Part shown: one piece after another, positions 10,546-45,517 of the stretch
Numbering within the stretch: the first letter of the stretch is position 1
Layout: every line of letters begins with the position of its first letter
Source of the DNA: a virus
Strand: one strand, 5' to 3'
DNA length: 64,000 nucleotides
Virus record (IMG/VR): IMGVR_UViG_3300037475_000071
Coordinates: 36,156 to 100,155 of that record
The notes under the pieces: model-generated
Told to the model about the DNA's origin: nothing
Database searches by the model: none
The model's input: the letters and a program-made list of their open reading frames with translations, nothing else
Position numbers and translations under genes: made by a program

Positions 10546-10729
10546 GATTCACTTCGCCGTTCGTACGATTAACGGCAAGCTGGTAGCGCGGGAGGGCAAG
10601 TTCGGAACTGGTAAGCGGCTGCATTTCTACTGCGGCTTCTGCAAGGGGTGGTTTGTGTCTCGTCGGCAGCGCAACGACCACGTTAGCGGCTGCGTGGAAT
10701 ACCAGCCACGCCAGAGGAGAACACGTTGA
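10538..10729 (+). CDS. Small zinc-finger protein
   Basis: A 63-residue basic protein from ATG 10538 with an AAGGAAAG binding site. It holds Cys-Gly-Phe-Cys, then a His and a Cys about 15 residues later (Asn-Asp-His-Val-Ser-Gly-Cys), consistent with a C2HC zinc finger. The tail is Arg-rich. Its stop overlaps the TTG start of recA (TTGA), so it may be a nucleic-acid-binding partner of RecA. Confidence 0.7.
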   Translation: MSKIHFAVRTINGKLVAREGKFGTGKRLHFYCGFCKGWFVSRRQRNDHVSGCVEYQPRQRRTR

Positions 10730-27121: not shown

Positions 27122-30100
27122 TTACGGGGTTCTTGTTCCTACGAGTACAGCAGAAACTGCGGCATTAACCGTGGTTACATCAGCACCTAAGTCAGTTCCG
27201 TCACTAGCTTGGTCGGCCTGTCCAGCAGCAAACACGCTATTAGTAGCGCATCCCCTAACTGTAGTGCACAACCTGTAGTCGCCACCGCTAGCATTGTTGT
27301 AGTTAACAAACCCTACCGCCGTATGCGATAACTGCCAGATTGGTGAACTCGAAAACACGGTAGGACTAGCCGTAGAGTCCATTAAGTTGTTGTGATCGAA
27401 TACGTACGGAGAGACAAGAACAAATCCGGGAGGAGTTGCCACGGGAGCATATGCTCCTCCGTTGCTTGATAGCTCCCACCCCGTACCAGACACGTTGCAG
27501 TAGAAGGTGTTGCCTGATGCCGGATGTTTGCAACTAGCTAGCGCGACTGCATTCCAGCCTGTGCCTTGGAAAGCCAGCGCCTCGGTATCTGTTGCACCTG
27601 TGCCCTGCGCTTGGTCGGCATCATTGTTCTCCCCGTTCGCATTGATAAACGTAGAAGACCCTGCTGCTGCAATGATGTTGTCCTGAATCTTGAAGTTTAT
27701 AAGCTGGTACTGAGCGATATAGTTATTCAGCCAGAACGGATTGACAGCATCGCCTATCAGAGTGTTGTGGGTAACAAAGATGTTGGCGGCCAGCGGCGTA
27801 GTCGGCGATGTCCAGCTTAGGACATTTATACTGGCCGTTCCACCCAACTGGAACTGCGCTGTAAGTTTTGCAAACCCATTACTCCATCGGTTAAAGCTGC
27901 AATCATCACACACGTTGTTAGTAAACAACACATTGTGAGTGCCTTTAGCGACGTTCAAAGGAACAATAGCAAATCCGGCACCAAAATGCCTGAACATGTT
28001 ATAACGAAGAGTAAAGTCTTGATTATAAGAAGGCCCATACCCAACGGTCACACCATTTCCGTCGGTGACCTGACTGGCTTGGTTAATCGCTTGTACAAGA
28101 CCTGCACTTCCCGTCTGTCCGCCGCCGTTACCCTGCGATCCCCACGCTAACTCAATGAGGTTTTTCTCCAAGAGCAGACGGTTACCGCATTTAGCTTCCC
28201 AGCCATTCTTACTGGTGAACGGCTTGAAATCATAAGCAACAATCGGGGCTGAGGTGCTAACATTGATAGCACTGGAGCCCGTTGTAGTTCCGTCCGTCGC
28301 AAACACAGTGTGTGTGCCGACGCCGGTACCTGAACAATAGATAGCCTCGCCAGCCGCAACGCCTGTAGGGGTAGTGACTGTACCGATAGTGCTATTGCCG
28401 CTGCCATTTCCGGGTGCATCTACGTACCACGTAATACTGCTTGGGGTAAAGTTAGCAAACTCAAATATCGTGTAGCAGAATTGCCGGATGTTCCCCCGAG
28501 CATCTGAATACGATGGCTGTATTTGTAAATCAGATGCCTTGGGACTAACCGCAATCACGTGTGTGGGGCTTGAGCTAACAACCGTCACGGTAGAAGATGC
28601 AGACAGTGTTCGGTTATTCCCTAAATTACCTGCCCTAGAATCGCTAGTTAGAGCGTTCGCTGTAACCACATGGTCACCTAACGTCGTTGCCACGGTGCAC
28701 ACAATGAGTGGAGCCCCTGAGCCAGTACAAACCGTATAGGTGTAGGTTATTTGGTTTGCACTAGCGTAAGGCGTAGTGCCCACATTGTGCTCTCCGTTTT
28801 TAGTTATCACCCCTAGACTAGAACTACCGCCCACCATGCAGGTAAGACTTGTAAATACACAGGTACTTCCGTCAATCGAGAATGATCCCCCTCCAATGGT
28901 GTTGGCATTGCTCATGCGGTTTAAGCCGCCAAAAGAGTCATTGCCCCAATACAATTGCAACTGAAGAGACTGTCCGGGAGTCAACTGCACAGCCGTCGGC
29001 GTTATCGTTAATTCTTGGTCATTAGCTGGCGGGTACGTAGCACCTTCTATTGTTTCTGATTCAAGCAGCGTCTGGCCGTTCTGCGTATTCCAGAGCGGGT
29101 TCTTAAAGAAATGATTTTGCGCCCACCACACATCGTGGGGAACTCCGTCGAACCCTGTTACTGGATTTAATGCTTCGGTGAAAGCACCGCAGAACAGAGA
29201 ACCCATCGTAGAAGACACGGTAAAATTGTTTACAAACTTACCGAAGCCGACGTTGGTATAACCATGACCGCCTCCCCAGAAATAAAACTGTGCGTCTCCT
29301 GAGCCGCCTGCCGCAGTTAAACCAATATCATCCCCGTAGCTATCAAGCAGCGCGACATGTCGTATGCCCGCAAAGTTAAAAGCTCTGCTGGTTTGTCGCT
29401 GAGCATCGCCATGCACGTACACTTGGTCGAAAATAATGTCATTTGGCTGCACATTCATACACGCTGTGGGAGTAACCATAAGCGCGGTGTCCCCTACCGT
29501 CTGGTTGGGATACGGAGCCAATGGATTAGTGGCGCAGTCCTGACCCACAGCAGCAGGTGAGTAGGTCAAATCAACCACCACCGTCAACAAATCGGTCGTC
29601 TGGTCTCGGGTTAATTCAAGCCCAATAAATCGCCAGAATGAAGGCGCAGTTATGCCTGTGCCGCTGCTTGGTACCTTGAGAGAAATAGTAGGAGTGCCTA
29701 ACGATGCTTTGCCAATTAGCACGGGCATGTGCCGTGTTGTGGCGTTAGGCGAGGTGTTCCACGTCGGGTATGGATACTCCGTCAACACCGAATGAGGCAG
29801 GCCAGCAAAAGATGGATCAACCCTTTGTCCCTCGGCCGGAAACGTGGTATCGGTAAAGTCTCGCGTCACCCAAATCCAATTAGAATTGGTGCATACTACG
29901 TCAGGAATAGTGAGATTAGTTTGGCTATATACAGTGTTCTGCATCACCAAAATGTTGCCGCAGACAAGACTGTTGATTGCAGTTTGTAATTGGGCCGTAG
30001 TAAACGAAGCGGAACAGCCCCCAGACAACGCAGCTACGTTAGCCAACGTACCGACACAGACGTAAGGCCCACTGGCAGGAGTCGCAGACCGTGCGGTATT

Positions 30101-30538
30101 CCACGCCAATAAAGTTGAATCAGGAAGAAGGGGAGCCCCTCCTGTGGGAGCCGCCACAATACTAAGGCCGGCATCAAAGATGTCTGTATTAAAAAGACTG
30201 TCCACTACACCAACACGGAATGAACTAGTTCCTGAACTTGTAGGAGTTCCGGTGATTGCACCAGTCGTAGCGTTAAGCGAGAGACCAGCAGGCAACGCCC
30301 CAGAAGTAACAGACCACGTTAGAGTCCCTATGCAATTTACCTGCGCAAGCGTAGCTGAGTAAGCAACACCTTGAGTGCCGGAAGGCAGAGTAGAAGTAGT
30401 GATGTTGCACGTAGCCCCTTGCGAGGCCACGCTGCTACCCACGGACGTACTGGAACCTACGGATGAAGATTGTGCGTAAACACTCGCTGGGCAAAGAATG
30501 CCAATAGCTAGCCCCAGAAGCAAACAAAGTTTTCTCAT
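27122..30538 (-). CDS. Large exported Ig-like / beta-helix protein
   Basis: An 1138-residue protein with a clear Sec signal peptide (hydrophobic 5-18, cleavage after Val-Tyr-Ala). Residues about 38-130 hold an Ig-like putative-adhesin domain of the He_PIG type (Leu-Pro-Ala-Gly-Leu-Ser-Leu-Asn-Ala-Thr-Thr-Gly-Ala-Ile-Thr-Gly-Thr-Pro). The rest is Ser/Thr/Asn-rich beta structure with repeated Asn-Asn/His-Asn turns typical of parallel beta-helices. This architecture is usual in secreted Acidobacteriota proteins. It may bind or act on host exopolysaccharide. A virion fibre is possible, but export before assembly would be unusual. Confidence 0.8.
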   Translation of the reverse strand: MRKLCLLLGLAIGILCPASVYAQSSSVGSSTSVGSSVASQGATCNITTSTLPSGTQGVAYSATLAQVNCIGTLTWSVTSGALPAGLSLNATTGAITGTPTSSGTSSFRVGVVDSLFNTDIFDAGLSIVAAPTGGAPLLPDSTLLAWNTARSATPASGPYVCVGTLANVAALSGGCSASFTTAQLQTAINSLVCGNILVMQNTVYSQTNLTIPDVVCTNSNWIWVTRDFTDTTFPAEGQRVDPSFAGLPHSVLTEYPYPTWNTSPNATTRHMPVLIGKASLGTPTISLKVPSSGTGITAPSFWRFIGLELTRDQTTDLLTVVVDLTYSPAAVGQDCATNPLAPYPNQTVGDTALMVTPTACMNVQPNDIIFDQVYVHGDAQRQTSRAFNFAGIRHVALLDSYGDDIGLTAAGGSGDAQFYFWGGGHGYTNVGFGKFVNNFTVSSTMGSLFCGAFTEALNPVTGFDGVPHDVWWAQNHFFKNPLWNTQNGQTLLESETIEGATYPPANDQELTITPTAVQLTPGQSLQLQLYWGNDSFGGLNRMSNANTIGGGSFSIDGSTCVFTSLTCMVGGSSSLGVITKNGEHNVGTTPYASANQITYTYTVCTGSGAPLIVCTVATTLGDHVVTANALTSDSRAGNLGNNRTLSASSTVTVVSSSPTHVIAVSPKASDLQIQPSYSDARGNIRQFCYTIFEFANFTPSSITWYVDAPGNGSGNSTIGTVTTPTGVAAGEAIYCSGTGVGTHTVFATDGTTTGSSAINVSTSAPIVAYDFKPFTSKNGWEAKCGNRLLLEKNLIELAWGSQGNGGGQTGSAGLVQAINQASQVTDGNGVTVGYGPSYNQDFTLRYNMFRHFGAGFAIVPLNVAKGTHNVLFTNNVCDDCSFNRWSNGFAKLTAQFQLGGTASINVLSWTSPTTPLAANIFVTHNTLIGDAVNPFWLNNYIAQYQLINFKIQDNIIAAAGSSTFINANGENNDADQAQGTGATDTEALAFQGTGWNAVALASCKHPASGNTFYCNVSGTGWELSSNGGAYAPVATPPGFVLVSPYVFDHNNLMDSTASPTVFSSSPIWQLSHTAVGFVNYNNASGGDYRLCTTVRGCATNSVFAAGQADQASDGTDLGADVTTVNAAVSAVLVGTRTP

Positions 30539-30633: not shown

Positions 30634-32319
30634 TTATGTCAGTTGAAGGTTGTAAATTAAACCGGTTGTACCCGTGGTTCCATTACTACCTGCGGTGCCG
30701 TTAGCACCAGTTCCAACGCCGCTTCCAGCAGCACCACCTGTGCCGCCTGTGCCACCACTAACATTGTCAGTGCCGCTGTTAGTAAGGGTGTTATAGATGC
30801 GCACGATGATTCCAGCATTTCCGCCATCACCGCCAGCACCGCCTCCGCCACCACCACAACTACCTGCAGTGGGAGTCCCGCCAGCACCGCCAGCACCGCC
30901 TCCGCCTCCGGAAACGTTGATAACTGAGCCAGTATTGAAAGTCATGGCCGGCGAAATTAAAACTATGAATCCGCCTTGACCGCCTCCGCCGCCAGAACCG
31001 CCGCCACCGCCACCTGTGTTAGTTAAATCACCCGCACCAGCCGCTCCTGAACCTCCAGAGCCATTACCACCTGTAACTTGAAAGCCATTGGCTGAAGTGT
31101 CGAACAGCTTGGAAGCTAAAGCCACCTCATGGGGAGAGGCTTTGTCCAATGTAGTGGGGCCGGCACTTCCACCTGCTCCACCAGTGGCACCAGCCTGACT
31201 ACCGCCTGATGCTCCAGAGCCGCCGCCATTGCCCCCTGCGGTGCCAGCATTGGCTCCGAATATAAGATTGAAGGCTACAGAGCCGCCTGTGCTACCCGCC
31301 GTACCAGATACGCCCACCCCAGTAGTACCCGTGGCTCCGGTTTTACCGGCCAACGACACAATCGGGGCGGCCAACGAACCCGAAGCTAAAACACTGCTAT
31401 TACCGCCGTTCGTACCTCCAGTAGACTTATTGGTGCCTGTAGCCGCTCCACCGACTCCACCACCAGTGCCGGCGTTCTGAATGGTGCCGGAATTGGTGAT
31501 GCTGGTAGAAGCTAAAATGCGGTTTGAAACTGTCTTGATAGTTACGCCAGTATTGTTTATGAACGTGGTGAAATAGCAATCCCGCGTCATGGTGTAGACG
31601 CTGGCCACAGGTGCACCTAAGCACGCAACAGTGCTCGTACCGTCCGCAGTAACCGCACCGTCTGAGCCGTCTCCTGCCCAGCTTTCTACGGGCGCACTGC
31701 CGCCAGATGCACTGATAACATTGTTAGACTGAGCAGTAGCCCGGCCCTTAGCGTCGAATGTTATAGAACAAGAGTGTGTTGCGTCTCCGCATGAACCAGG
31801 AGTGACTCCACTCGCGGCTAGGGTGGGAGCGGGGTAGTTTCCAGCTAAATCACCTAAAGCTGGCCCGTTTGGGGCCGGGTCGCAATTGATGCCAAATCCG
31901 CGGCATCGCATACGACCAACTGTGCTGTCACCCCACCACCTAAAATTACCGCTTGATGGGTCTGCCGGAGCAGCTTGAGACTGGAAGGTAAAAGTATAGC
32001 CGGTACCAATAGTCGTGATGCTGCTGAATGTCGCCCCGGTACCCGTGATGTTTACTAGGTTAAGGCTGCCGTCAGAACTCCAGGTTGCGTTTTGGTTGCA
32101 AAAATTCAATGATCCATTAAAGTAAATTACTGCGGGAGTTCCCGCTGCGCACGGCGACAAACCTTTAAGAAGGCTGTCCAGAGTATTGAAGTTGTTGTTT
32201 ACATTTGAGTCCCAATTGGATAATCCATGTGGAGGCAAGTCAAGACCCACGTTCGGCGTCTTAGGTACCTGTGCACCAGCAAGGCAACACGCCAGCAGTA
32301 CAAATAATATTTTCTTCAT
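30634..32319 (-). CDS. Exported Gly-rich fibre-like protein
   Basis: A 561-residue protein with a Sec signal peptide (cleavage near Ala-Gly-Ala). After it comes Trp-Asp-Ser-Asn-Val-Asn-Asn-Asn-Phe-Asn-Thr-Leu, a motif common at the N-terminus of phage tail and fibre proteins. The C-terminal half is poly-Gly blocks (Gly4-Gly6 with Ala/Ser) separated by short beta strands. This resembles the polyglycine-II sandwich of T-even gp38-type adhesins. It starts in a TAATG overlap with the HNH gene. A receptor-binding or surface adhesin role is inferred. Confidence 0.75.
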   Translation of the reverse strand: MKKILFVLLACCLAGAQVPKTPNVGLDLPPHGLSNWDSNVNNNFNTLDSLLKGLSPCAAGTPAVIYFNGSLNFCNQNATWSSDGSLNLVNITGTGATFSSITTIGTGYTFTFQSQAAPADPSSGNFRWWGDSTVGRMRCRGFGINCDPAPNGPALGDLAGNYPAPTLAASGVTPGSCGDATHSCSITFDAKGRATAQSNNVISASGGSAPVESWAGDGSDGAVTADGTSTVACLGAPVASVYTMTRDCYFTTFINNTGVTIKTVSNRILASTSITNSGTIQNAGTGGGVGGAATGTNKSTGGTNGGNSSVLASGSLAAPIVSLAGKTGATGTTGVGVSGTAGSTGGSVAFNLIFGANAGTAGGNGGGSGASGGSQAGATGGAGGSAGPTTLDKASPHEVALASKLFDTSANGFQVTGGNGSGGSGAAGAGDLTNTGGGGGGSGGGGGQGGFIVLISPAMTFNTGSVINVSGGGGGAGGAGGTPTAGSCGGGGGGAGGDGGNAGIIVRIYNTLTNSGTDNVSGGTGGTGGAAGSGVGTGANGTAGSNGTTGTTGLIYNLQLT

Positions 32320-32999
32320 TACACATCCTTTATCTGGTTGTCTTGTTGTTCTCGATGAGGACAGACACCATAAATAAATTTCGCCATATTGCAGTTATGG
32401 CACAGCACTTGAAAACCTTCAGGGAAGTTGTGAGTTTTTAGCCACTGGTACATAGATGGAAACTTTCCCTCACGTCTATGTTTGCTACCGCCGCCGTTTA
32501 TATGGTCGATGCAAAGAAAATGCAACATACTTTCCCCGCAACACGCACATTGTGGTGTACCGTTGCTATAGTGTGTCAATACACTGAGACGTAGTTTTCT
32601 TCGTCTTGACCGTTTGGCTTCCGCAAGCTCAACGGAGTACACTTTATGCCTGCGATTACAGTTTTTCCTATGAGCTTGTCTGCATTTAACACACATCGTA
32701 GCTCCCTCATCCGGAGGAAACTTACCACACGTCTGACATAAGCCCTTGCTTTTCCACTCAGAACGCTGCTGTTTGCTTTTATCGTTCTTACAGCGCTTGC
32801 ACTTACCTCTTTTGTCTCTGTTTTCTTCTGTGAGCGCGTGACCCCGCTTGCAGTGCGTCTTCTTGTGGTATGTCTTAGGTGTGAACTTATTATGATGGCC
32901 TTTAAGGAACCGTTTGGGTTGACCCTTCACCATCCCTCGCGGTCGATTAGTGCTGCCGTACACACCTGCATCCTGCCCACAACCGCACTCACAGAGCAT
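32319..32999 (-). CDS. HNH homing endonuclease
   Basis: A 226-residue protein. A Cys-Glu-Cys-Gly-Cys start, several Cys pairs (Cys-Lys-Arg-Cys, Cys-Gln-Thr-Cys, Cys-Val-Lys-Cys) and basic linkers form the DNA-binding part. The C-terminal HNH reads Cys-Ala-Cys-Cys-Gly, Cys-Ile-Asp-His-Ile-Asn-Gly-Gly-Gly and Cys-His-Asn-Cys-Asn-Met-Ala-Lys. It overlaps the metallophosphoesterase by 11 bases and the Gly-rich fibre gene by one, so it looks inserted without disturbing either. Confidence 0.9.
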   Translation of the reverse strand: MLCECGCGQDAGVYGSTNRPRGMVKGQPKRFLKGHHNKFTPKTYHKKTHCKRGHALTEENRDKRGKCKRCKNDKSKQQRSEWKSKGLCQTCGKFPPDEGATMCVKCRQAHRKNCNRRHKVYSVELAEAKRSRRRKLRLSVLTHYSNGTPQCACCGESMLHFLCIDHINGGGSKHRREGKFPSMYQWLKTHNFPEGFQVLCHNCNMAKFIYGVCPHREQQDNQIKDV

Positions 33000-34443
33000 T
33001 TGCCAACACTCGCTTGGTTATAATTGGCTCAAACGCTTGATCGGTATAGGTAAACTGTGCAATCAGTCCCTCGGTTTTAGACCAAACAAAGGACTCAGCC
33101 GTACGCAGATTTCCTACGTAACCGTGGGCCGCGTGATACTCGTCGGCAGTGCTAAGAGAGCTGAGAATACGTACACGTACGCCGTGGAACTCCTGAGTAC
33201 GAGTGGAATGATTATGTCCAGTGTGAATCTCCCTAAACTTTGTTGCACCAAATAGGCTAGGGTTCTCAGTTGCAAAGAGCAAGGGCATATCTTCACGATT
33301 ACCTAAGTCGCCGTGAACAAAGAGCAAGCCAACTTCTCCCCACTGACAATACTTTCTCAACGTCGGACTGTTATCTACCTGCACCAGTGGGTCATTGTGG
33401 AAGAAGCACTCCAGTGAATCTCCAAGAGCCCAGCTTGAGAAGCGATCATGGTTACCCACGCATACAATTACCTTCACTGGAGCAATCTCTTTCAACATCT
33501 CTATCGCCGCACACATCGCCTTACGCGCTGTCCAGAATGCCTTTTGAAAGCGCCCATCTGAGTCCACAACTGTGTCGTTGGCCGTGCGGGATTCAAGGTC
33601 ATTGCTGTGAAGCAAGTCGTTGCCAACGATGAACACCACCTGCTCATATTCAAATCCACGCGAACGCTCAATGAGACGTTCCAGAGCGCGGAAAAACATA
33701 GCCTCCGTAATCTTTACATCGTACGGGCGGTCACCTGTCTCGTTAGGCCACGCATTCTTGCCGAAGTGTAGGTCGAACAGGTCTACTTCCAACATCAGGC
33801 CCGTCTGCTTTACAGGTTTGTTCTTAAGGAGGGGGCGCTTGATTACCGTCTTCGCGTGCTGCTTGAGGTCATCAATTTCCTCTAGCACTTCGCGGGTACG
33901 ATCTAATTTATCGGTTTCATCTTTGCGTTTCAGCTTGGTTATGCGTCTCTGGAGACGTACATTCTCGCGGAGCACATGGGAAATCAGAGACCCAGACGTA
34001 TCACCTAGCGCGTACTGCACAGTGGCTTTGGTCTCAGCACGCACAGGCTGCGCTTCTAAACTATTAGCAATCTTAGCCACGTCATTGCTGACTACGTACT
34101 TGAGAATGTTTTGAGCGGTATCCTTACTACATTCCAGTAGGCGTGTAAGTGTTTCAACTGAGGGGTATTCGTAGGTCTCTGATTTGGTTTCTTGGATTGT
34201 CGGGAGGGCCAGTTTCAATAACTCCATCTCCACAGGGGAGAGAGTCACTTTACCCAACCCAGCCGCGGCCAGGAAGTCATTGAATTTGGGGAAGAATTTT
34301 TGCCAGTCGGCTTCGGAATACTGACTGTTCTCGCGGTAGAAATTGCGGGTAACGCTGGAATTGGATTTCGACGCTAGTTCCTGTAGTTCTTTCAGCACGG
34401 CCGATTTAGTCGGCGAGGCTTGTTTTTTTGATGATGAAGCCAA
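32989..34443 (-). CDS. Calcineurin-like metallophosphoesterase
   Basis: A 484-residue protein. I start at TTG 34443, seven bases behind AAAGGG, because a terminator-like hairpin occupies 34475-34517. An ATG at 34557 would read through it. The N-terminal 190 residues contain helical DNA-binding-like and coiled-coil segments. The C-terminal half holds the phosphoesterase core in order: Asp-Leu-His, Gly-Asn-Asp (GDxxH position), Val-Gly-Asn-His-Asp, His-Gly-Asp and Thr-Gly-His-Asn-His. Related proteins are DNA repair nucleases or phosphodiesterases. The substrate is unknown. Confidence 0.85.
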   Translation of the reverse strand: MASSSKKQASPTKSAVLKELQELASKSNSSVTRNFYRENSQYSEADWQKFFPKFNDFLAAAGLGKVTLSPVEMELLKLALPTIQETKSETYEYPSVETLTRLLECSKDTAQNILKYVVSNDVAKIANSLEAQPVRAETKATVQYALGDTSGSLISHVLRENVRLQRRITKLKRKDETDKLDRTREVLEEIDDLKQHAKTVIKRPLLKNKPVKQTGLMLEVDLFDLHFGKNAWPNETGDRPYDVKITEAMFFRALERLIERSRGFEYEQVVFIVGNDLLHSNDLESRTANDTVVDSDGRFQKAFWTARKAMCAAIEMLKEIAPVKVIVCVGNHDRFSSWALGDSLECFFHNDPLVQVDNSPTLRKYCQWGEVGLLFVHGDLGNREDMPLLFATENPSLFGATKFREIHTGHNHSTRTQEFHGVRVRILSSLSTADEYHAAHGYVGNLRTAESFVWSKTEGLIAQFTYTDQAFEPIITKRVLANAL

Positions 34444-34474
34444 GTGTATAGCCCTTTCTGAACTGAAATGAAAA

Positions 34475-34517
34475 TTAAGGGATGCAGCCAAGGTAGGAAA
34501 TGAAAAAGCCGCATCCC
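34475..34517 (-). terminator. Terminator-like hairpin
   Basis: On the - strand GGGATGC (34517-34511) pairs with GCATCCC (34485-34479) and is followed by TTAATTTT. It would end the transcript of the coiled-coil membrane protein gene upstream and lies before the TTG of the metallophosphoesterase. Confidence 0.55.
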
Positions 34518-34579
34518 TAAGCAGAACGAACTGCGGGATGATTTGATTGTTGCACACTTCCAGTGCGTTGTCAACTGCT

Positions 34580-35013: not shown

Positions 35014-37440
35014 TTATGCCGAATACAACCCAACGCAGTACACCTTGACATGAGTGCTGTCTGAAACGTTTCCATTGGTGTCTACGCCTTCTATATAAAT
35101 CTCGTGGGTTGCTTTAGTGCTCAGTGGTACATACTTGTCTATCGCGTACGTGCTTACATTTTCAGGAACATCGAACACGATCGCACCATCTACGAAAATC
35201 CGCACATGGGCGAATGTTGCCGTGGTTCCGGTAACAAGCGTGCCTTGAATACGTATAGGAGAGTAAACGTACGCTCCATCAAACAGCGACAAAACAGAGC
35301 CGCCAAAGAAGTCTCCGCCGCCGTAGCCATCAGTCCCATAACCAACAGTTCCGTAGCCGGTCTGACCTCCTGTGACTGTAACCAAGCCTGCCGTCATAGC
35401 CTGAAGGCCAGTGGTATCGGAAACCGCCAAACTAACGGTAAATTGTCCTGCCGTTCCAAAGATATGACTGCTCGTCCAAGGCGGAGACAACGCTACTGGC
35501 GAACTTCCATCTCCCCACGTTAACTGCTGGGAAGATATAGTACCGTTGGAAGAACTGCTCCCTGAAGCATCAGCAGATACCGTGAGCGGAGCAGTGCCGG
35601 ATGTAGGCGTGAGCACAAGAGAGGCTACGGGAGGATTTGAAATCAACGCATATTTCTGGGCCGTTGATATGGAGTTCTTCATCGACGACTTAGCAACCAT
35701 TTGTACGTACAGGTAGTACGTTCCCGAGCCCAAATTGTAATTTGCCAAATTGAGGCTACTTGAACCAGCCGCGATGTTGTCTTGCAGCACAGCCAGATTA
35801 TTCTGGTCTGTGCTGATATAAACGGTGAAATGGTCGATATTATTCGCAGACCCTGCGCCGGAGGTTGACCAGCTCAATACCGCCGAAGCCAGAGACGACG
35901 ATATGGTAAGGCAACTGTCGATTCCGGATTCAATCTCAGTACCCTCTTCGTAGTCGCTCCACGTCACAGGCTGCAAGTATGGAAGCTGATGGCCAGAACT
36001 GAAATACCCGCTCACACCCCACTCAGAGAAGGTGTCCAACCAGGTTTTACCGCACTGCTGTGCTATGAGCCTGCCGGAGCCCCAACTGGCTATAGAGTCG
36101 TTGAAACCTTTCCAAGAACCCGCCCAAGGAATAAGGGTCGCATGGTTTTTGGCGGCATTGACGAAGGCATCAATAACCAATAGCCCTTCGTCCGTAGAGA
36201 AAGAAGCACTCATGGAATGCGAATTACCTGCCCACTGATAGGCACCCGCCGTATCCGACTTAGTGAATCCGGGGCTGTTCTCGAAGATCAGTTCAATATG
36301 AGTGGCGTAAGTATTGGTGTGCGCGATTACCGCGTCCCACACTGTCTGCCAGCAAGTCTGCGAAGTCGTAGTACAGCCAGCGTTGAACTCAGGGGCCGTG
36401 CTGGTAATGAACGGTACCACTGGAATCTTGCTGGTCGCTGGGTTGATATACTGCGCTGCCCCACCGAAGTAGTGAGTATGAAGATAATCCAAATCGGCGT
36501 TGATTTCACCTGTCATACAGGCAGTCATGCTCGCGTAGCCCATCGTTGTCCAGCCGGGCGTACCACTAGAGCCGGGAGCGTTGTTCACGCCGCAGGTGTA
36601 CGAATAGGAGTGGTCTAACATCCACGTGTATTTCAACGGAGTGCCACTACGACCGTTCATGTCATTAACGAAGTTAGCCGCGTGTGAATCTTGATTGGCG
36701 AAGTTGGCAATCGTGTTGCCACGGCCATACCAGTCCAACAGCATACCGTCTATGTGCCGCCCGATTGCATCGGTATCGACGCGAGCAATGTCGTTAACGT
36801 CGTCGTAGTTATTTGCGTTCTCAACGTGGCTGCGGCAGGCAGTGAACGAAGTAGACACGACGTGCTTGCCGATGCCTCCAGCTTGGCACCACCACAGAAT
36901 TACGGTTGGAAATATCTTGGTGGTGTTCCCGCTGTACAGTAGATTGTGCATGTCCACGTGGCTGATGTTGGTAGCCGCGAGGTCGCCATTTGAGAAACCA
37001 GTGAAGAACGGAGACGCGCCGGAGTTGTTTCCCTGCTGCAAGGCCAACGTAGTAGTAGGATTGATGGTGAATGTTCCGCCCCCACCCGTACCGCCTGTAC
37101 AAGAAGAACTAACAGTGACCGGATTGACAGCCGTGCTATTACTAAACCCACCGGAGTCGAACGCTTTAACGATTAAGTTATACGTCCCCACCGCTAGCGT
37201 CAGATTTTGCGACAGCGTAGCGGAATTGGTAGTAGCGTTCCACAAAAGAGTGTTGCCGTTATTGATTTGCCATCCCGTAACTGTGGCACCTAACGTAGTA
37301 GTCGTTGCAGACGCATTGACAGTCAGCGGTGAGCACACTGTGCTGCTCGCAACTGGCGAGGATACCGTGACCGTCACTCCTGCGGATGCGACCATAGACG
37401 ATAGCAACAGAATCGCCAATGCGTAAAAACGTTTAAGCAT
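35014..37440 (-). CDS. Exported glycosidase-like protein with Fn3 and PKD-like domains
   Basis: An 808-residue protein with a Sec signal peptide (Leu-Ala-Ile-Leu-Leu-Leu, cleavage at Ala-Ser-Ala). Residues about 20-115 are an Ig-like domain. Residues 125-520 look like a TIM-barrel glycoside hydrolase: His-Ile-Asp-Gly-Met-Leu-Leu-Asp-Trp-Tyr, Ile-Glu-Leu-Ile-Phe-Glu-Asn, and Val-Thr-Trp-Ser-Asp-Tyr-Glu-Glu-Gly-Thr-Glu-Ile. The last recalls the Trp-Asn-Asp motif of GH71-type enzymes. Fn3-like and PKD-like (Leu-Thr-Trp-Gly-Asp-Gly) modules follow. Polysaccharide degradation at the cell surface or by virions is likely. Confidence 0.7.
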   Translation of the reverse strand: MLKRFYALAILLLSSMVASAGVTVTVSSPVASSTVCSPLTVNASATTTTLGATVTGWQINNGNTLLWNATTNSATLSQNLTLAVGTYNLIVKAFDSGGFSNSTAVNPVTVSSSCTGGTGGGGTFTINPTTTLALQQGNNSGASPFFTGFSNGDLAATNISHVDMHNLLYSGNTTKIFPTVILWWCQAGGIGKHVVSTSFTACRSHVENANNYDDVNDIARVDTDAIGRHIDGMLLDWYGRGNTIANFANQDSHAANFVNDMNGRSGTPLKYTWMLDHSYSYTCGVNNAPGSSGTPGWTTMGYASMTACMTGEINADLDYLHTHYFGGAAQYINPATSKIPVVPFITSTAPEFNAGCTTTSQTCWQTVWDAVIAHTNTYATHIELIFENSPGFTKSDTAGAYQWAGNSHSMSASFSTDEGLLVIDAFVNAAKNHATLIPWAGSWKGFNDSIASWGSGRLIAQQCGKTWLDTFSEWGVSGYFSSGHQLPYLQPVTWSDYEEGTEIESGIDSCLTISSSLASAVLSWSTSGAGSANNIDHFTVYISTDQNNLAVLQDNIAAGSSSLNLANYNLGSGTYYLYVQMVAKSSMKNSISTAQKYALISNPPVASLVLTPTSGTAPLTVSADASGSSSSNGTISSQQLTWGDGSSPVALSPPWTSSHIFGTAGQFTVSLAVSDTTGLQAMTAGLVTVTGGQTGYGTVGYGTDGYGGGDFFGGSVLSLFDGAYVYSPIRIQGTLVTGTTATFAHVRIFVDGAIVFDVPENVSTYAIDKYVPLSTKATHEIYIEGVDTNGNVSDSTHVKVYCVGLYSA

Positions 37441-37808: not shown

Positions 37809-39413
37809 TCAGCACGGTAGAATAACGTTGTGGGCCAAGATTAGCGGTGCCTTCTCCCCGGCCCAAAACTCGTGCTCTGGCTCGCAGGTGATTTTAGCTT
37901 TGTAATCCGCAATGGGATTGCCCTCACTGTTACACGCAATAGCTAATGAAGTTATTTGGTCTAGTTTGTTTACCGCGTGCTGCACAAACAAACAGTCCGA
38001 TAAAGTTAAGTCGGCGCATTGTTTTGTACCTTCACCTTGGGAAGAAGGCACTGTGAATGGGTGTGTTGGAGTTGCTTGGATATACCCTGACTCGCGCAGC
38101 CCTATACGAACAAATCCGTTCGTCCACCATATAAGGTCTAGCGCAATTATTTGCGTCCAGTCCGTACGCCCCATAATCCATTCACCGACTTTACAAGACC
38201 CTAACTGAACGATGCCGCGCTCCAAGGAGCGTACATACATCGTATAACGCAAACAATTACCTAAGCCACCGCCCCCACCCCCACCACCCCCAGAACCAGT
38301 GGAAGAAGGTGCAGGGGTAGATATAGTTATGCTTCCGTTAGTCAAAGGAATATGCGATTTAAGCCCTTGCTCCTGAGCGGCAGGGTAATTTGGGGCAGGA
38401 TAAGCAAACGGGCCTATAGGCAATCCGCTGCCTAGCCCTGTACCCCCAGCCGTTGAGAACCACACATTTTGTAGAACCTCTTGAAAATACGGGTAAAAAT
38501 AGTAAGGCTTAGATGCAACAAGAGAAAAGCATTGAATATAAGCAGGTACAACCGCCGTAGTTGTCCCGTCGTTGCGGTAAATTGTGAGTGGCGTAGAACC
38601 AGCATCACCGTTCCAGTGAAAAGTAATAGTCGCTACCCCATTAGCGTCCGTACTAGCGGAGTATGTCATGTTCCCCGGATTTTGCCACATAGGGCCAATT
38701 GAGCCCTTTTGCAACACCCCCTGCTGCATCAAGTCCACGTTGCCGCTTGTTATAGCGGTACCGAGAACTTTGCTATACGTAGGCCCATCAGCTACGTTGT
38801 CAAGCGTTCCTCCCGTCATCGGGCCGCCCGTTAGGAGAAGCCACGACGATGCTTGCTGAGCCCCGTTGACAGTGCGTACATACACCCACACTTGCTGCCC
38901 TGAAGCAGTCGGAACCGTCACCCAGATATTGTTGTTGGAGTCAGCTTGCCCCTTCCACATCGGGATCGAAGAATCACTTGGTGCCGAACCATCATACGTC
39001 CAGCTTACCTCGTAGTGGTCATTGTCCAGCCCAACGTTTGTGGGCTGTAGAGGCAGTATTATTCCCGCCGCCGTAAACCCAATAATCAACCCCGGAGTAA
39101 ACTGCCAAGTGTTGGTAGGAGGGGAATCCGTCCCAGCGATTTCAGCAAAAGGCGTAGACCAATCTATCTGCCCCGTGATGGGTGTTACCGCTCCAGCACG
39201 AAGGTAATATGTATTTCCGAGAACCAACCCACCGAACACAATCAAATCGTGCTGCACACTGTACGCTGTGCCGTCCCACACCGCAGAAGAGGTACCGCGG
39301 CTGACCAAAGTAGTCAGGGCTTGATCGGCGTAGCATTCAACCACGAAGTGGTCTAACCACTTGGTAGCCACTTGTAATCCCGCAACAATGATGCTCGCTA
39401 CCTTAGTTGACAT
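37809..39413 (-). CDS. Tail protein with Fn3-like repeats and C-terminal Hint domain
   Basis: A 534-residue protein in the tail-fibre region. Residues 1 to about 370 are Fn3-like beta modules. A Ser-Thr-Gly-Ser linker plus nine consecutive Gly precedes a Hint (Hedgehog/intein) domain from Cys387 to Asn529. Block A is Cys-Leu-Arg-Tyr-Thr with Lys-Val-Gly-Glu-Trp-Ile. Block B is Thr-His-Pro-Phe-Thr-Val, then Ala-Asp-Leu. The end reads His-Glu-Phe-Trp-Ala-Gly and Leu-Ala-His-Asn-Val, leaving five residues ending in Cys. This is a bacterial intein-like arrangement and suggests autocleavage or thioester chemistry during tail maturation. Confidence 0.8.
   Translation of the reverse strand: MSTKVASIIVAGLQVATKWLDHFVVECYADQALTTLVSRGTSSAVWDGTAYSVQHDLIVFGGLVLGNTYYLRAGAVTPITGQIDWSTPFAEIAGTDSPPTNTWQFTPGLIIGFTAAGIILPLQPTNVGLDNDHYEVSWTYDGSAPSDSSIPMWKGQADSNNNIWVTVPTASGQQVWVYVRTVNGAQQASSWLLLTGGPMTGGTLDNVADGPTYSKVLGTAITSGNVDLMQQGVLQKGSIGPMWQNPGNMTYSASTDANGVATITFHWNGDAGSTPLTIYRNDGTTTAVVPAYIQCFSLVASKPYYFYPYFQEVLQNVWFSTAGGTGLGSGLPIGPFAYPAPNYPAAQEQGLKSHIPLTNGSITISTPAPSSTGSGGGGGGGGGLGNCLRYTMYVRSLERGIVQLGSCKVGEWIMGRTDWTQIIALDLIWWTNGFVRIGLRESGYIQATPTHPFTVPSSQGEGTKQCADLTLSDCLFVQHAVNKLDQITSLAIACNSEGNPIADYKAKITCEPEHEFWAGEKAPLILAHNVILPC
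37827..38255 (-). other. Hint (bacterial intein-like) domain
   Basis: The 143-residue segment Cys387-Asn529 of the tail protein. It has the N-terminal Cys nucleophile, a block B Thr-x-x-His equivalent (Thr-Pro-Thr-His-Pro-Phe), a penultimate His and terminal Asn, and Val at +1. With Val instead of Cys/Ser/Thr at +1, full splicing is unlikely. Cleavage at either junction is more probable, as known for BIL domains. No homing nuclease is inside it. Confidence 0.78.
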
Positions 39414-39419
39414 GAAACC

Positions 39420-40379
39420 TCACCCGTATCGGCCATTGTTGCTGGCGTAATTTTTCCAACTCTCGGCTATAATCTCTGACGAGAACTGAGCAAAGAAAGA
39501 CCCTGTTGGTATGGTCGGGTCGGTTTTACCATTGAGCGGAGCCGGAACATCCTGACACTCATTGGCCCCGAACTCTAGCAGACTCGGAGCTTCGAACTGA
39601 TGACTTGTTTGGCCAGATAGACCAGAACCAATGTCGTCAATCGCTGTCACCCTGATGTACCGAGTTGGAAAGAAATCAGAATCATCCAGCACGTAGAAGT
39701 TGTCCGGCGTGTTAACGGAGCGAATGATGTTCGCCATGTTTGCACTGGTGGCGTCGATTTCCACCAAGTACATAGAGGAGTTAACTCCCGTCCAGGTCAG
39801 CTTCTTGGTGCTATCATCCACAGCCAAGTTTGAAATCTGAGGCGTCGGGATAACAGTTGCGTTAGTGGTCGTGTCCCACGCCGTGCTGAACTCACCTAGC
39901 AAGTTATAGGTGTACACGAAGTACGCTGGGTTCCTTGCGGAATTTCCGTTGTTCGTGAACTGGTACTGGCCTGCAATGATGTCCGTCGATTGCCCGTCAA
40001 TGATGTCCTGATGCAGTAGCACTGTCTTATTGTCAGCAGCCCTAATTTCGTAGCCCCACACATTGTCCTGCACAGCAGGCAGCGTGACCGTAATCACTGG
40101 CGCGGTGATGGTAGTGGTGTCCACGGTCGCTGTGGGAGCATTGGGAATTAGAGGCAGCGCAATGTGGAGTCCAGCGGCGTAGCGGGACAACGCTCCGTAA
40201 GGAACACTGGCTGTCTTCGCATACAGAGTTTCTGTCAGTGTGCCCACCTCCAGGGAGGCTCGCGTTATTTTTACCCCGATGTTCAAAGACAGGTCATAGT
40301 TTTCAAGAAGTATGAAACTAGACCCGTCTTCTTCAACGAGGAAATCTACGCCGTTTTCCAACAGAAATGCGGTATCCAT
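39420..40379 (-). CDS. Tail protein, Fn3-like
   Basis: A 319-residue beta-rich protein. It starts with a short hydrophobic Phe-Leu-Leu-Glu-Asn repeat (two copies within 30 residues), followed by two Fn3-like modules of about 90 residues each. Located between the tailspike and the Hint-tailed protein, it is probably a tail-tip or fibre-connecting component. Confidence 0.7.
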   Translation of the reverse strand: MDTAFLLENGVDFLVEEDGSSFILLENYDLSLNIGVKITRASLEVGTLTETLYAKTASVPYGALSRYAAGLHIALPLIPNAPTATVDTTTITAPVITVTLPAVQDNVWGYEIRAADNKTVLLHQDIIDGQSTDIIAGQYQFTNNGNSARNPAYFVYTYNLLGEFSTAWDTTTNATVIPTPQISNLAVDDSTKKLTWTGVNSSMYLVEIDATSANMANIIRSVNTPDNFYVLDDSDFFPTRYIRVTAIDDIGSGLSGQTSHQFEAPSLLEFGANECQDVPAPLNGKTDPTIPTGSFFAQFSSEIIAESWKNYASNNGRYG

Positions 40380-40398
40380 GTATGCCCCTTAACTGTGG

Positions 40399-42519
40399 TT
40401 ACTGCATTTTGTATTGCACAATTACATTGAGGTTAGTTGGAGGGGTGCCCCCAACAGATGCGGTATTTAATCTTATAAGCAGAGTTGCCCCAGCAGCAAT
40501 GTTGAGTGAAATTGCTCCGGAATCAAAGTTACCGGTGGAGTTGGCAATAGTTGTGTCTTGGTTATTTGTACCGTCTCCTACTCTCACGATTGCCGCGGTA
40601 GTCTGCCCAGTTGCACTAGACCCTGCTACAATTTGCACACGAGTTATCGTGATAGCTTTGTCAAGAGTAGTATTAGCCCATGTTCCTACTCCAGTAGTTG
40701 ATGGAATAAATCCCGAAAGATACGAACGCGGGTTGGCACTCATAGCCGTATCTCCACCAACACTTAATGACTTAGGAACTTGTACGGCTGTTGTGCCCCC
40801 AAATGATACCGTTCCGGAACCATCGCTTTTACCTCCAATCACTAAAGCGTGAGTCCCATCACCGAATACATCAGGAAATGCAGTATTGCCGGCCGACCGT
40901 ACGAATGCCGCGTCATATAGTGTTACTGGGAGGTATGTATTCGTAGGCATACTCGTCACGGAGCCTGAGTCGAATACTGATACGTTTGGACTGGTAAAAC
41001 TACCTCCCGCAAAGCTTACCCCCACTGTGCTCTTTACCCTGTTGTTCCTAATGGACACCACTGCGGCCGACACAGCAGCGGTAGTTGAAAAAAGAATACC
41101 GGAATCAGAACCCCCACCACTAGTAATGAAATTATTGCTGATATGAATTTCATCAGTGTAAGTAGCGGTACCGGACGTTTCATTAAGTGCGTTTATATAG
41201 ATATTGCCAGATACCGACGTTGTGCAACTAAGATGATTTCCTCTTATGGAAATCTGCTTTCCCCATTGAATACCTATCAATGCGTTTGCAGATGAAATTG
41301 ACGCCATCAGAATTGAGTTATTGGCTATAATCAAACCAGTAACCACGTTGGTAGGAGGGGTCGCATCTGACGACACGTCTATGCAGTTCCATCCAGCTTG
41401 CTGCCCAAATATTACGTTGTTAGAGACTACAATATTCTGCGTTAACGCAAATGCAAGGGTGGTGGTATCCGCAGAAAACACCTGAATGGATACGTTTTTT
41501 GCACCATCAATTATATTTCCTATGATAACTGAATCAGAACCCCTCCCATACTCAATGGCAGCACCGCCAGCGGAAGTTTGCGTTCCTCCGTGATTACGGA
41601 TATAATTTCCTGCGCAGTAATAACCTCCGCCTGTAGCCATATAAATGCTATGCCGTTGGCAATCTTCAATGTGGTTATTTACTATCTTGGTGCCGGAAGG
41701 GCCACTAGCGTTCAGTGCCATACCATAGCCACTACCGGGAGCAGTTCCCGTAATACCGCTTATCCAGTTATTCTCAATAGTGTTATTAAACGACGGATCA
41801 GTGAAATCAGTGCCTATGTATATTCCCGCACCAAACATGTTAGACAACTTGCATCGTCTAATGGTTACATGAGTAATATGATCTTCCAGTTCTATTCCAA
41901 ACTGGTTTGCACTATTTGTGGTTAAAGAGTCTCCATTAATAGTTACGTCGTCAAGCAGTACATTGTTAATCGGGGTACCACTATTGTTAATAAAAATTCC
42001 GATACAGTTGATACCATTCATTTGCAGGCTTCCACCATTGATTACCACATTGCTGGACTTAACCTGAATTGCATGGAGACTGCTAAACGTGAAAGTAGCT
42101 GCGGAGGGGGCTGGCAAAAGCAGCACGCACGGCTTGGTGATAACAATGGCTGCTGAGAAAGACTGGCTGCCAACCAAACCTTTTGCGTTTATAACTCCTC
42201 CCGTGGAAGGCAAAGCAGCAAGAGCCGCATTAATCTTAGCGTCTGCTGTAGCTCCCGGAAAAGCGTCCGCAAATAGCGTGGTGTTGCAAGAATATAGCTC
42301 GGCTATCCAAGGTGCAGAAACACTGCCTAGGGATTGCGTGGTATTCCCGCTAGCAGGAAGAATATGGTGGGCACTAACACTCTGGTCTGCTCCGGGAGCT
42401 TTAAGAAGAAAATCCGAAACAGGCAACTTGACGTTACTTCCAGAACGCGCCGCTGGGATAGCGTCTGTAGGTTGCGCGGGTGACCCAGAAGGTAGTGTTG
42501 AAATCGTGGAATTACTCAT
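40399..42519 (-). CDS. Parallel beta-helix tailspike-like protein
   Basis: A 706-residue protein without a signal peptide. The N-terminal 75 residues (Ser/Pro-rich, with Gln-Pro-Thr-Asp and Pro-Ala-Ala-Arg motifs) resemble phage fibre attachment segments. An Asp-Ala-Lys-Ile-Asn-Ala-Ala-Leu-Ala-Ala-Leu-Pro motif then starts a pectate-lyase-type beta-helix with many Asn-Asn/Ile-x-Asn-Asn coils (about 100-540). The C-terminal domain is beta-rich. It is the best candidate for the virion's polysaccharide-binding or depolymerising tailspike. Confidence 0.85.
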   Translation of the reverse strand: MSNSTISTLPSGSPAQPTDAIPAARSGSNVKLPVSDFLLKAPGADQSVSAHHILPASGNTTQSLGSVSAPWIAELYSCNTTLFADAFPGATADAKINAALAALPSTGGVINAKGLVGSQSFSAAIVITKPCVLLLPAPSAATFTFSSLHAIQVKSSNVVINGGSLQMNGINCIGIFINNSGTPINNVLLDDVTINGDSLTTNSANQFGIELEDHITHVTIRRCKLSNMFGAGIYIGTDFTDPSFNNTIENNWISGITGTAPGSGYGMALNASGPSGTKIVNNHIEDCQRHSIYMATGGGYYCAGNYIRNHGGTQTSAGGAAIEYGRGSDSVIIGNIIDGAKNVSIQVFSADTTTLAFALTQNIVVSNNVIFGQQAGWNCIDVSSDATPPTNVVTGLIIANNSILMASISSANALIGIQWGKQISIRGNHLSCTTSVSGNIYINALNETSGTATYTDEIHISNNFITSGGGSDSGILFSTTAAVSAAVVSIRNNRVKSTVGVSFAGGSFTSPNVSVFDSGSVTSMPTNTYLPVTLYDAAFVRSAGNTAFPDVFGDGTHALVIGGKSDGSGTVSFGGTTAVQVPKSLSVGGDTAMSANPRSYLSGFIPSTTGVGTWANTTLDKAITITRVQIVAGSSATGQTTAAIVRVGDGTNNQDTTIANSTGNFDSGAISLNIAAGATLLIRLNTASVGGTPPTNLNVIVQYKMQ

Positions 42520-42535
42520 TACGGGTTATCCTCAA

Positions 42536-45517
42536 TTAGGTGCCTGAAATAAATACAGCGTAATCTGAGCCATTAACCGTGCTCGCGGCTGTGTAAGAAA
42601 CCGATACACGTTGCCAGTCCGTTGTCAGCACCACGCTTTGGCTAGCGTACACAGTGTTCGTTGACGAACTGCGTATGCCCACCACTACGGTCTTACCTAT
42701 GTCGGTGAGTGTATCCGCCTTGACATCCACGGAGTAGGTCAACAGCGTACCCACGACTTCCGGAACCGCTGTCGTCTGGAAACACTTGCCTGACGGCACT
42801 ATCGTCACCTTACTGATTAGCGACTTGGTTCCGTCGGGGTTTATATCCATCTTGTTGACTGTCGGCGTTATGCCTCCAGTAAGCAGTTGCCACGCGGAAG
42901 CAGTGAAGTCTTCCGAAAACAGCACTTGGTTTCTACCATCCTGCGCTTTGACCCACACGGCTTGGCCGCGTAATGTGCGAGGAACTTGGAAGGCTCTACC
43001 AAGCGAGCGCATCACAAGGTTCTTAGCGTCGTCACATCCCCATGACTCGTTGGTGTAGCGGATTTCAAATCCACCACCACCGGGCGGGTCTTGGTTGGTG
43101 GTAAGGTAGTAGTTGCCACTGTCCCACGAGAGCAACGAAGGCCCGATTACGTCATCTGCAAACGTAGTGCCTACGGTACTGATGCTGATTGCATTAGGAA
43201 TTTCGGCATCGTCTTGCGGCTGCCACGGAGTATTAGGCTTGGTGAACTTAGCGAGGAACTTCTGTTCCATGCTCTGCCGGCCAAACGTAATCTGTAGGTC
43301 AAACACTTCCTTGGGGATCAAGGAACTAAACGTAGTTGCCACCTGTGTAATAGACTCGGCTGTGAGCGTTGGCGGAAACTGCGTAGGCATGTTCTGAAAC
43401 TTCAGAACCGTACCCGACAGAATTTCCCCAGTAGCCTCGAACAGATTAGTCAGGGAATATGTCCCGTCCCAGTGCTGTCTGCCTTGGTCTCCCACTATTG
43501 CTTGGGCGGCCACCTCGCACTCGCCAGATGTTCTCGGCAAAGGCGACAGGTTGGAAGTCACTGCCGAACGCAGGCCGTTATCCCCCCACGCCGCCGACTC
43601 CGTAGCAACAGAGCCCTTATCCTGAACACGTCCAATAGACGCTCCGGCTCGTCGGTAGGTAAACCAAATAAGGTCACCCACATTCGGCATAGTCTGCGTT
43701 TGATTCACCGTGTCAACGAAAAACTCCAGAGCAGCGTTGCCGGGGTTGTACTGAATTCTGCCCAGCAGAGACGACCGCGTAGTAGCGCCTTGGTTAGAAT
43801 CCACCACAGTGGCTACAGGAGTGTTGCCGTCATAAGAATCAATCTCATTAGGCCCAATCAGCTTGGTACTAAACACCGTGCTGCCCTTTGGCCTAACCTT
43901 CAAGCCAGCGTGCAGCGGGGTTGATATGGTCAGCCCTGTAAAGCTACAATGCAGATCATTCAAAACCACAGGGATGTAAAAAGCGAAACCCAAATCTGCA
44001 CTTATAGGCACAGTGTTGGTGCATTCCATGAATGCTGTCGAACCGTTAGCCTGTGTAATAACCGTGCCCGTCTCTGGGTCGATGGCTATAATCTTTGTCT
44101 CTGCCGTCATCGTGTCGGGCAGCATTGGCTGGCCAACAGTTTGCACGGCACCGTTCGCGTCAAGGTACGAATAGTTCTGGGTAAAACGCTTGCTGCGTTG
44201 GAATGTATAATTGGTACGAACCACGTAGCGAAGATTGTAGTTACCCAGCAACACGCCTTGAGTGGTGTCCACAAGCCCGTTAACAATCGGGTTAACCAGC
44301 ATGGCCGCTACGCCATTTTGTATAGTCGTAGTCTTAGTGAGCTTCAGTCCGTAAAGAACTTTGGCCAGAGTATTCGTCGGCTCCCCAGTCCAAAGACCAC
44401 AAATCACTCCGTCTGAGGATTGAACAAAGTCATACTCCCCGTGGGTGATTCGCATACTGCCTTCCAGCGGAAACTGGAACTGGGTCTGCATCCACACGTC
44501 GTACTGGCCGTTGTTGTTGCCCCCAAGGGCATTACAAAATCCGTTGGAGACCTGGATGAACTGAGTGGGAGTGTCGAACACATCCCACTTCTGCTGGGTG
44601 TCTATCGAAGAGCCAGAGAAGGTCTCGTCGAATAGTAAATTTGTATCAGCTCCGTAGCACGAAGCAATAAGCGGGAATTTACCGTTCCAGCCATCGCCAA
44701 CGAAATATTCGCTCATGTAGTCCTGCGGCTCAATGTCACCGAGAACAACAGCGTCGTTTACGATAGGGTCGTTGCTAGGAGTAAGGCTAAGGTTCGCAGG
44801 CGTAAAATCCACAACTTCGCCGTCGATGATGAGCGGAGCGATGCGGCTGTCGATTGGCTCGAAATACAGCTTGCCCTGCCGTGCCGCAAAACGGTAATTG
44901 GCCGCCTTGCAAAAAGCGTCAACCACGTCCTTCCACTTTTGCGTGGGGTCAACGATGTACCGCGCCATCATCAGGCCGTCCTGAATGTTGGAAACATCGA
45001 AGTTCCACTCAGGTGCCATCACCCCAGCCAAGGTCTTGAGTATCTGGCCTTGGGTAATGTTCATGAACGGAGACAGCAGAGGCAGCGGGTTGAGATTGAG
45101 AAGATAATCTTCCCCAGATGCCTCGTACACATAACCGAAGACAGGCTGGCCGCTTCTCGAACCTAAATAAGTAAGGTTTGGATCGCTGGTAATGAAACCC
45201 GTGAACCAAGGGCCGTATGAAGCTGTATCTAGCTGAATGTACGCCCCGCGCTGTAGCTTTACGAACGCAGAGTCTGCGGGGAATACTGAGAAATCCAACA
45301 CATCGGGTGTATTGAGTACGTCCTTCTTTATCGGCGCATTAAAAAGATAAGGCAAATAATCATAGCTAGAACCGGCCAAGGTGCTCCACAACCTAGCAAC
45401 CATCGGCGATACAGCAGGCTGGGTATTAGGCCATGCAGTATTGGGCCAGAACATGCCTCCCGCCGCTCTAGGGGCAGGAGACGGAGTAGGAGAAACATCT
45501 TGCCCTAAAATACTCAT
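42536..45517 (-). CDS. Tail tip / baseplate hub protein
   Basis: A 993-residue protein downstream of the tape measure, where siphovirus tip proteins lie. The N-terminus is Pro-rich. Residues about 90-260 (Ile-Leu-Lys-Thr-Leu, Trp-Lys-Asp-Val-Val-Asp-Ala-Phe-Cys-Lys-Ala) resemble a hub-like or receptor-binding-tail domain. The last 130 residues look like a carbohydrate-binding module (Asp-Phe-Thr-Ala-Ser-Ala-Trp and Asp-Trp-Gln-Arg-Val-Ser-Val-Ser-Tyr). It has no signal peptide. Confidence 0.75.
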   Translation of the reverse strand: MSILGQDVSPTPSPAPRAAGGMFWPNTAWPNTQPAVSPMVARLWSTLAGSSYDYLPYLFNAPIKKDVLNTPDVLDFSVFPADSAFVKLQRGAYIQLDTASYGPWFTGFITSDPNLTYLGSRSGQPVFGYVYEASGEDYLLNLNPLPLLSPFMNITQGQILKTLAGVMAPEWNFDVSNIQDGLMMARYIVDPTQKWKDVVDAFCKAANYRFAARQGKLYFEPIDSRIAPLIIDGEVVDFTPANLSLTPSNDPIVNDAVVLGDIEPQDYMSEYFVGDGWNGKFPLIASCYGADTNLLFDETFSGSSIDTQQKWDVFDTPTQFIQVSNGFCNALGGNNNGQYDVWMQTQFQFPLEGSMRITHGEYDFVQSSDGVICGLWTGEPTNTLAKVLYGLKLTKTTTIQNGVAAMLVNPIVNGLVDTTQGVLLGNYNLRYVVRTNYTFQRSKRFTQNYSYLDANGAVQTVGQPMLPDTMTAETKIIAIDPETGTVITQANGSTAFMECTNTVPISADLGFAFYIPVVLNDLHCSFTGLTISTPLHAGLKVRPKGSTVFSTKLIGPNEIDSYDGNTPVATVVDSNQGATTRSSLLGRIQYNPGNAALEFFVDTVNQTQTMPNVGDLIWFTYRRAGASIGRVQDKGSVATESAAWGDNGLRSAVTSNLSPLPRTSGECEVAAQAIVGDQGRQHWDGTYSLTNLFEATGEILSGTVLKFQNMPTQFPPTLTAESITQVATTFSSLIPKEVFDLQITFGRQSMEQKFLAKFTKPNTPWQPQDDAEIPNAISISTVGTTFADDVIGPSLLSWDSGNYYLTTNQDPPGGGGFEIRYTNESWGCDDAKNLVMRSLGRAFQVPRTLRGQAVWVKAQDGRNQVLFSEDFTASAWQLLTGGITPTVNKMDINPDGTKSLISKVTIVPSGKCFQTTAVPEVVGTLLTYSVDVKADTLTDIGKTVVVGIRSSSTNTVYASQSVVLTTDWQRVSVSYTAASTVNGSDYAVFISGT

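Follow-up and report, generated by a model that had tools for sequence, protein, structure and literature searches.

The 534-amino-acid tail protein of a soil phage, of a tail-tip or adhesin type and adjoining the tail hub, probably ends in a self-processing Hint module that, by analogy with known systems, would act like an A-type BIL domain. The window, here meaning the whole 64,000-nucleotide stretch of DNA analyzed, is part of a virus record of 100,155 bases. The elements of the tail protein are as follows (window positions).

37809..39413, minus strand: open reading frame of the 534-aa tail protein with the Hint module, the second gene after the split tail hub
38799..39413, minus strand: conserved N-terminal domains, residues 1–205 (alignment), also present in both Hint-bearing and Hint-less tail proteins of related phages
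38265..38291, minus strand: nine-Gly linker, residues 375–383 (sequence); Gly linkers occupy the same place in L142 and L003/L004
37827..38255, minus strand: Hint domain, Cys387–Asn529, 143 aa (profile, hhalign, AlphaFold2, Foldseek)
38253..38255, minus strand: Cys387, the predicted N-terminal nucleophile (block A), which falls on Cys1 in the alignment with phage C-terminal Hints
38061..38072, minus strand: T448-P-T-H451, block B, aligned to TxxH
37866..37883, minus strand: EPEHEF (511–516), block F-like strand with His, aligned to the 'VEDDHTYFAN' block
37827..37838, minus strand: L526-A-H-N529, block G, with Asn529 predicted to cyclize (sequence and alignment)
37812..37826, minus strand: C-terminal flank VILPC (530–534), 5 aa, with Val at +1 and the stop next (sequence)

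The C-terminal order is STGSGGGGGGGGGLGNC(387)LRYTMYV...KVGEWIMG...YIQATPTHPFTV...KITCEPEHEFWAGEKAPLILAHN(529)VILPC-stop. The nine-Gly linker, Cys387, TPTHPF (residues 448–453) and LAHN followed by Val are all located where the preliminary description had placed them; its interval 37827–38255 is exactly Cys387–Asn529, and the five residues that it counted beyond Asn529 are VILPC, followed by the stop. Cys387 at the start of the domain and block-B T448xxH451 are features of Hint membership, and the terminal H528-N529 and the lack of a nucleophile at +1 (Val530) are features of A-type BILs, of which the domain retains Cys1, the block-B Thr and His, the block-F His, the penultimate His and the terminal Asn. 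The +1 residue of inteins is nearly always Cys, Ser or Thr, whereas here it is Val, and only VILPC lies beyond Asn529. A Hog-type region for recognition of a sterol or adduct is likewise absent from these 5 aa. The −1 residue is Asn386 in place of the usual Gly, the G-T that usually follows the Cys is absent, and six Cys lie downstream of Cys387.

The preliminary description had looked to profile searches and structure prediction for confirmation. Among curated models, Intein_splicing was the sole Pfam family reported for the domain, below its cut-off (14.9 bits, E 0.024; cut-off 35.8), and NCBIfam gave no match; a PHROGs search yielded nothing useful. In contrast, a profile of 28 other viral C-terminal Hints, with the window sequence left out, scored the domain at 16.2 bits, a value reached by none of 20,000 shuffles (best, 14.4), and ranked the tail protein top among 375 frames of the window, the 64 kb that these profile controls cover. 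With a smaller, earlier Hint profile the score was 10.4 bits, and 1 of 5,000 shuffles exceeded it. The hhalign alignment of the domain with the phage Hint family spans 131 columns, from the Cys to the His-Asn (P = 9e-4; 'probability' 23%). When the domain was shuffled 200,000 times, the crude order C...TxxH...HN near the end arose 137 times, and no other of the 141 window frames of at least 100 aa has it. Searches of IMG/VR, phages, plasmids and GTDB genomes with the Hint or the whole protein found no close relative of the Hint, and a filtered search of its own genome with the family profile missed it. The case from sequence alone is weak, because the domain is very divergent.

AlphaFold2 supplied with a Hint alignment predicts a Hint fold for the domain (pLDDT 86.9, pTM 0.79), whereas its single-sequence model is uninformative (pLDDT 35); the confident model rests on the supplied alignment and so is not independent proof of the fold. 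Foldseek found 55 PDB matches with E ≤ 0.001, those listed being inteins, BILs and Hedgehog (1at0, E 8e-5). The best is the gp41-1 intein (E 7e-8, TM 0.73/0.88), and the BIL domain of C. thermocellum ranks third (2lwy, E 5e-7, TM 0.75/0.84); class 3 inteins and Tetrahymena BIL2 are also among the best, and several viral matches bear the name Hint.

The strongest evidence for Hint identity is context. As no close relative of the Hint was found, relatives were reached via the tail hub and via a DNA pattern of Gly linker plus Hint. Residues 5–183 match the 'tail protein' ORF16 of Tunturi_4 (37.6%), a Tunturiibacter phage classed as an Acidobacteriota siphovirus (PMC11924767); there ORF16 comes after the large virion protein ORF15 (the hub), and gene order in the window is alike. 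The nearest orthologue found, in L142 (42% identity over residues 2–194, 194 aa), ends in a Gly linker, CCVGRTPI...SDDH...LYVADGILCHN and NLKAPP (PPPPPGGGGGGGDPDGGCCVGRTPITTRAG...QCSDDHGIF...VVYHISIPPSCLYVADGILCHN-NLKAPP), and a profile built without L142 gives its Hint 25.5 bits. In L003 and L004, two near-identical contigs of related phages, it is the tail-hub protein that ends in a Gly linker, a Hint, SHN and MIDPSNK (GGGGVGGGGGSGACLVAGTPIRLFNGTEKPVETLTLGDVLM...YRLHLSSPHIYLGGGVWSHN-MIDPSNK; profile score, 38.5 bits), and tblastn with this hub Hint matched phage inteins. The tail-protein orthologues in Tunturi_4, L005 and L008 have no Hint, and hence the Hint is an add-on module; no continuation homologous to a C-extein was found in these three orthologues. 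A GTDB search with the hub profile found no prophage. Within one group, three phages thus have the ending of Gly linker, Hint, HN and 5–7 residues, on two different tail proteins, while sister phages lack it, which indicates an interchangeable C-terminal module.

These orthologues and sister-phage Hints, at the same place and behind the same linker, are hard to reconcile with a chance resemblance in a protein that has no Hint domain. The family scores under cut-off, the missing close homologue and the uninformative single-sequence model are what such a coincidence would leave, but it would also have to account for the shuffle result with the 28-Hint profile and the confident alignment-based fold, and it is scarcely credible. 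The claim of the preliminary description that the tail protein ends in a Hint/BIL module is thus supported and is convincing in context, from the orthologues, the profile, the predicted fold and the recurrence of the layout.

That recurrence is broad. A scan of IMG/VR DNA with the pattern GGGxGxC[LVFIM]xxGTx[IV] found at least 120 stretches, and the matches listed contain 102 complete proteins that form 39 clusters. Since the set was chosen by them, conservation of Cys1, G-T and HN in it is no evidence; [TS]xxH was outside the selection criteria and is present in 38 of the 39 clusters among the matches listed. HN lies near the end in 26 of these 39 listed clusters, of which 24 look on reading like genuine terminal HN. 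In 25 non-redundant HN-ending phage Hints among the matches listed, the flank beyond HN has 1–21 aa, and the +1 residue is Lys (4), Gly, Val, Phe, Ser or Leu (3 each), Tyr (2), or Met, Arg, Thr or Ala (1 each); with Cys in 0/25 and Ser or Thr in 4/25, a nucleophile is not conserved at this position. Four loci (L017, L078, L083 and L092) have tandem Hints: the first ends in LVHNK(G), and a Gly stretch leads on to a second Hint that lacks the terminal HN, which suggests serial modules on a single protein.

Among named phages, the layout is present in Erwinia phage vB_EamM_Y3 gp110 (YP_009794284; annotated as 'putative phage tail protein, contains intein domain'), Yersinia phage fHe-Yen9-02 333c, the tail protein of Alcaligenes phage Afa-NA1 and the NCTB 'large intein domain protein'. 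These are tail or virion proteins that, like the window protein, end in Hint, HN and a short flank; the Y3 and Afa-NA1 proteins differ from it in being collagen-like, and the Hints of these phages are much nearer the family norm. The layout is thus common in environmental viruses and present in named jumbo phages. The same arrangement in related and unrelated phages argues for a real, little-studied trimming or chemical finishing of tail proteins rather than a one-off. Against solved structures, the family profile matches best the BIL domains 6y75 and 6tmm (~6e-21), followed by 2lwy (3e-17), with most inteins lower; by sequence, the phage C-terminal Hints as a family appear closer to BIL domains than to inteins. 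The window Hint has itself diverged too far for such a ranking, its best fold match being an intein and a BIL coming third.

The Hint fold may have been kept while catalysis is dead or nearly so, and the domain would then be a stable tip of the tail protein with a structural or binding role. This is a serious rival because the domain has drifted so far, with the G-T motif lost and six Cys beyond Cys387. Moreover, a subset of the Gly-linker Hints in other viruses, amounting to some of the clusters, lacks the terminal HN, and the C-side reaction is therefore dispensable in some of them. However, despite this great divergence the domain retains the full set of Cys1, TxxH, block-F His and terminal His-Asn, and residues that are not used should drift. 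A dead domain is accordingly rather unlikely, and the self-processing module is the preferred reading.

In A-type BILs, an N-terminal thioester is formed and Asn is cyclized; cleavage products predominate, and the flanks can be ligated even without a nucleophilic side chain (PMC4031507, PMC7664689). If this chemistry applies here, the Hint would fold and Cys387 would attack the Asn386–Cys387 peptide bond (N–S acyl shift). The thioester would be resolved mostly by hydrolysis, releasing a 148-aa module and leaving residues 1–386 as a shorter tail protein with the Gly linker at its end. Asn529 would probably cyclize and VILPC be shed, in a step separate from or concerted with that on the N side, so that residues 1–386, the Hint and the pentapeptide VILPC are the predicted main products, and VILPC joined to Asn386 by BIL-type ligation a minor one. 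With cleavage products as the main outcome, the module is read as a C-terminal cap or maturase that would act once in tail assembly and could be removed, like the removable C-terminal domains of other phage tail proteins. The Val at +1 disfavors splicing without precluding it: cleavage, which the preliminary description expected instead of splicing, is the likelier outcome, but Val does not require it. Maturation of the tail tip by the predicted Hint cleavage is plausible and is the favored reading.

The preliminary description also proposed attachment through the thioester. In a Hedgehog-like reaction, the Cys387 thioester would be attacked by a nucleophile on either a different tail subunit or a molecule of the host surface, and the tail protein would become covalently attached via its Gly linker. 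The position of the module, at the very end of the protein behind a flexible Gly linker, is the Hedgehog layout, the Hog domain (1AT0) being likewise a C-terminal Hint that acts on an N-terminal partner, and the Hedgehog Hint is among the fold matches. However, no substrate-recognition region, such as the sterol-recognition region of Hog, lies beyond the Hint, a terminal His-Asn is seen typically in inteins and A-type BILs rather than in Hedgehog, and no co-occurring partner gene was found among the relatives searched; the downstream 114-aa gene, considered as an attachment partner, had no match in them. Attachment is therefore chemically possible but unsupported, and is distinctly improbable. 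The same low expectation applies to the C-terminal Hint as a ligation device that would pass its thioester to an amine or thiol on a second tail subunit or on the host surface and create a covalent bond in tail assembly or adsorption.

The same phage contains a canonical intein with Ser at +1.

10726–12570, plus strand: RecA gene interrupted by an intein at the Walker A motif (GPEA-C...VHN-SGKTT), with a weak HNH_3 match in the intein

Inteins therefore do visit this genome, and the tail Hint might be the relic of an ordinary intein that has lost its C-terminal extein and persists as a non-functional tail extension, as the Val at +1 and the five residues beyond Asn529 would fit. But the truncated-looking layout is found again in the orthologue and in a second tail protein of the group, as well as in named phages and in 24–26 of the 39 pattern-scan clusters among the matches listed; the next gene begins directly after the stop, so that no leftover extein is seen; and the RecA intein is recognized at 38.6–40.7 bits while the tail Hint is BIL-like. 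A decayed intein is thus highly improbable. The tail Hint differs from the RecA intein in position, flank and motif detail and is therefore not simply another copy of it, although the two may share a distant ancestor. In the L008 record (locus L147), a helicase-like gene has a full intein with an endonuclease-sized insert at a Walker A site (GTGK-C...HN-T).

Compared with characterized systems, the self-processing module favored here is closest in its parts to the A-type BILs (Clostridium thermocellum 2LWY; Tetrahymena BUBL1 BIL2 6Y75, 6TMM), with which it shares the Hint fold, Cys1, TxxH, the C-terminal His-Asn, the lack of a +1 nucleophile and a location in a variable protein region. It differs from them in being far more divergent and in its place at the extreme end of a phage tail protein, with 5 aa as its flank. 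The class 1 mini-intein gp41-1 (6QAZ, 6RIZ), its best fold match, has the same motif order, whereas the window Hint has no Cys, Ser or Thr at +1 and no C-extein and is not in a conserved enzyme site. The S74 intramolecular chaperone autopeptidase of phage tail fibers and spikes, which uses a Ser/Lys mechanism, is alike in the proposed role of a removable C-terminal domain; the mechanism is unrelated and no sequence relation is claimed.

BIL and Hint domains occur in bacterial secreted and variable proteins, and inteins in phage enzymes. Hint domains on phage tail proteins are already known from annotation, as is this class of chemistry; new are the divergent member, its orthologous support, and the finding that the layout of Gly linker and C-terminal Hint is widespread and BIL-like. 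A literature search for Hints of phage tail proteins turned up inteins of terminases and comparable enzymes but no tail Hints, and no experimental study of the role of this layout was found within a literature coverage that leaves out most subscription journals. If active, the module would finish tail proteins by removing or ligating itself, and new tags for cleavage or ligation might be derived from it.

The tail region of the window has further unusual features.

39420–40379, minus strand: hub part, 319 aa
40399–42519, minus strand: beta-helix spike gene, 706 aa, of lower GC, inserted between the hub halves
42536–45517, minus strand: hub part, 993 aa
45514–45783, minus strand: acyl-carrier-protein (ACP) gene (Pfam PP-binding, 28.7 bits, above cut-off; DSL motif)
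35014–37440, minus strand: large protein, 808 aa, with a signal-peptide-like N-terminus and a PKD domain
32319–34557, minus strand: calcineurin-like phosphoesterase, 522 aa, then a small HNH-like gene
30634–32319, minus strand: large protein, 561 aa, with a signal-peptide-like N-terminus
27122–30538, minus strand: large protein, 1138 aa, with a signal-peptide-like N-terminus

In Tunturi_4 the tail hub is a single protein of 1319 aa, whereas in the window it is split into two (39420–45517, minus strand). The ACP gene belongs to the tail operon, two genes upstream of the far side of the hub coding sequence, between the hub and a pentapeptide-repeat-like gene. An ACP is included among the genes of Acidobacteriota viruses (PMC11924767), and in L139 (about 9730–9970) one lies directly upstream of the hub (35.1 bits); it is absent in 10 of 12 relatives. 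As a thiol partner for the Hint, the ACP was rejected as unsupported: L139, the sole other carrier among the 12 relatives, gave no match to the Hint, and those relatives that do bear a Hint lack an ACP. The 1138-, 561- and 808-aa proteins come after the tail genes and, if secreted or surface-displayed, would be unusual for a phage. The 522-aa phosphoesterase has HTH_36 and a homing-endonuclease-associated repeat at its N-terminus, and L005, L007 and other relatives encode related phosphoesterases downstream of their tail genes.
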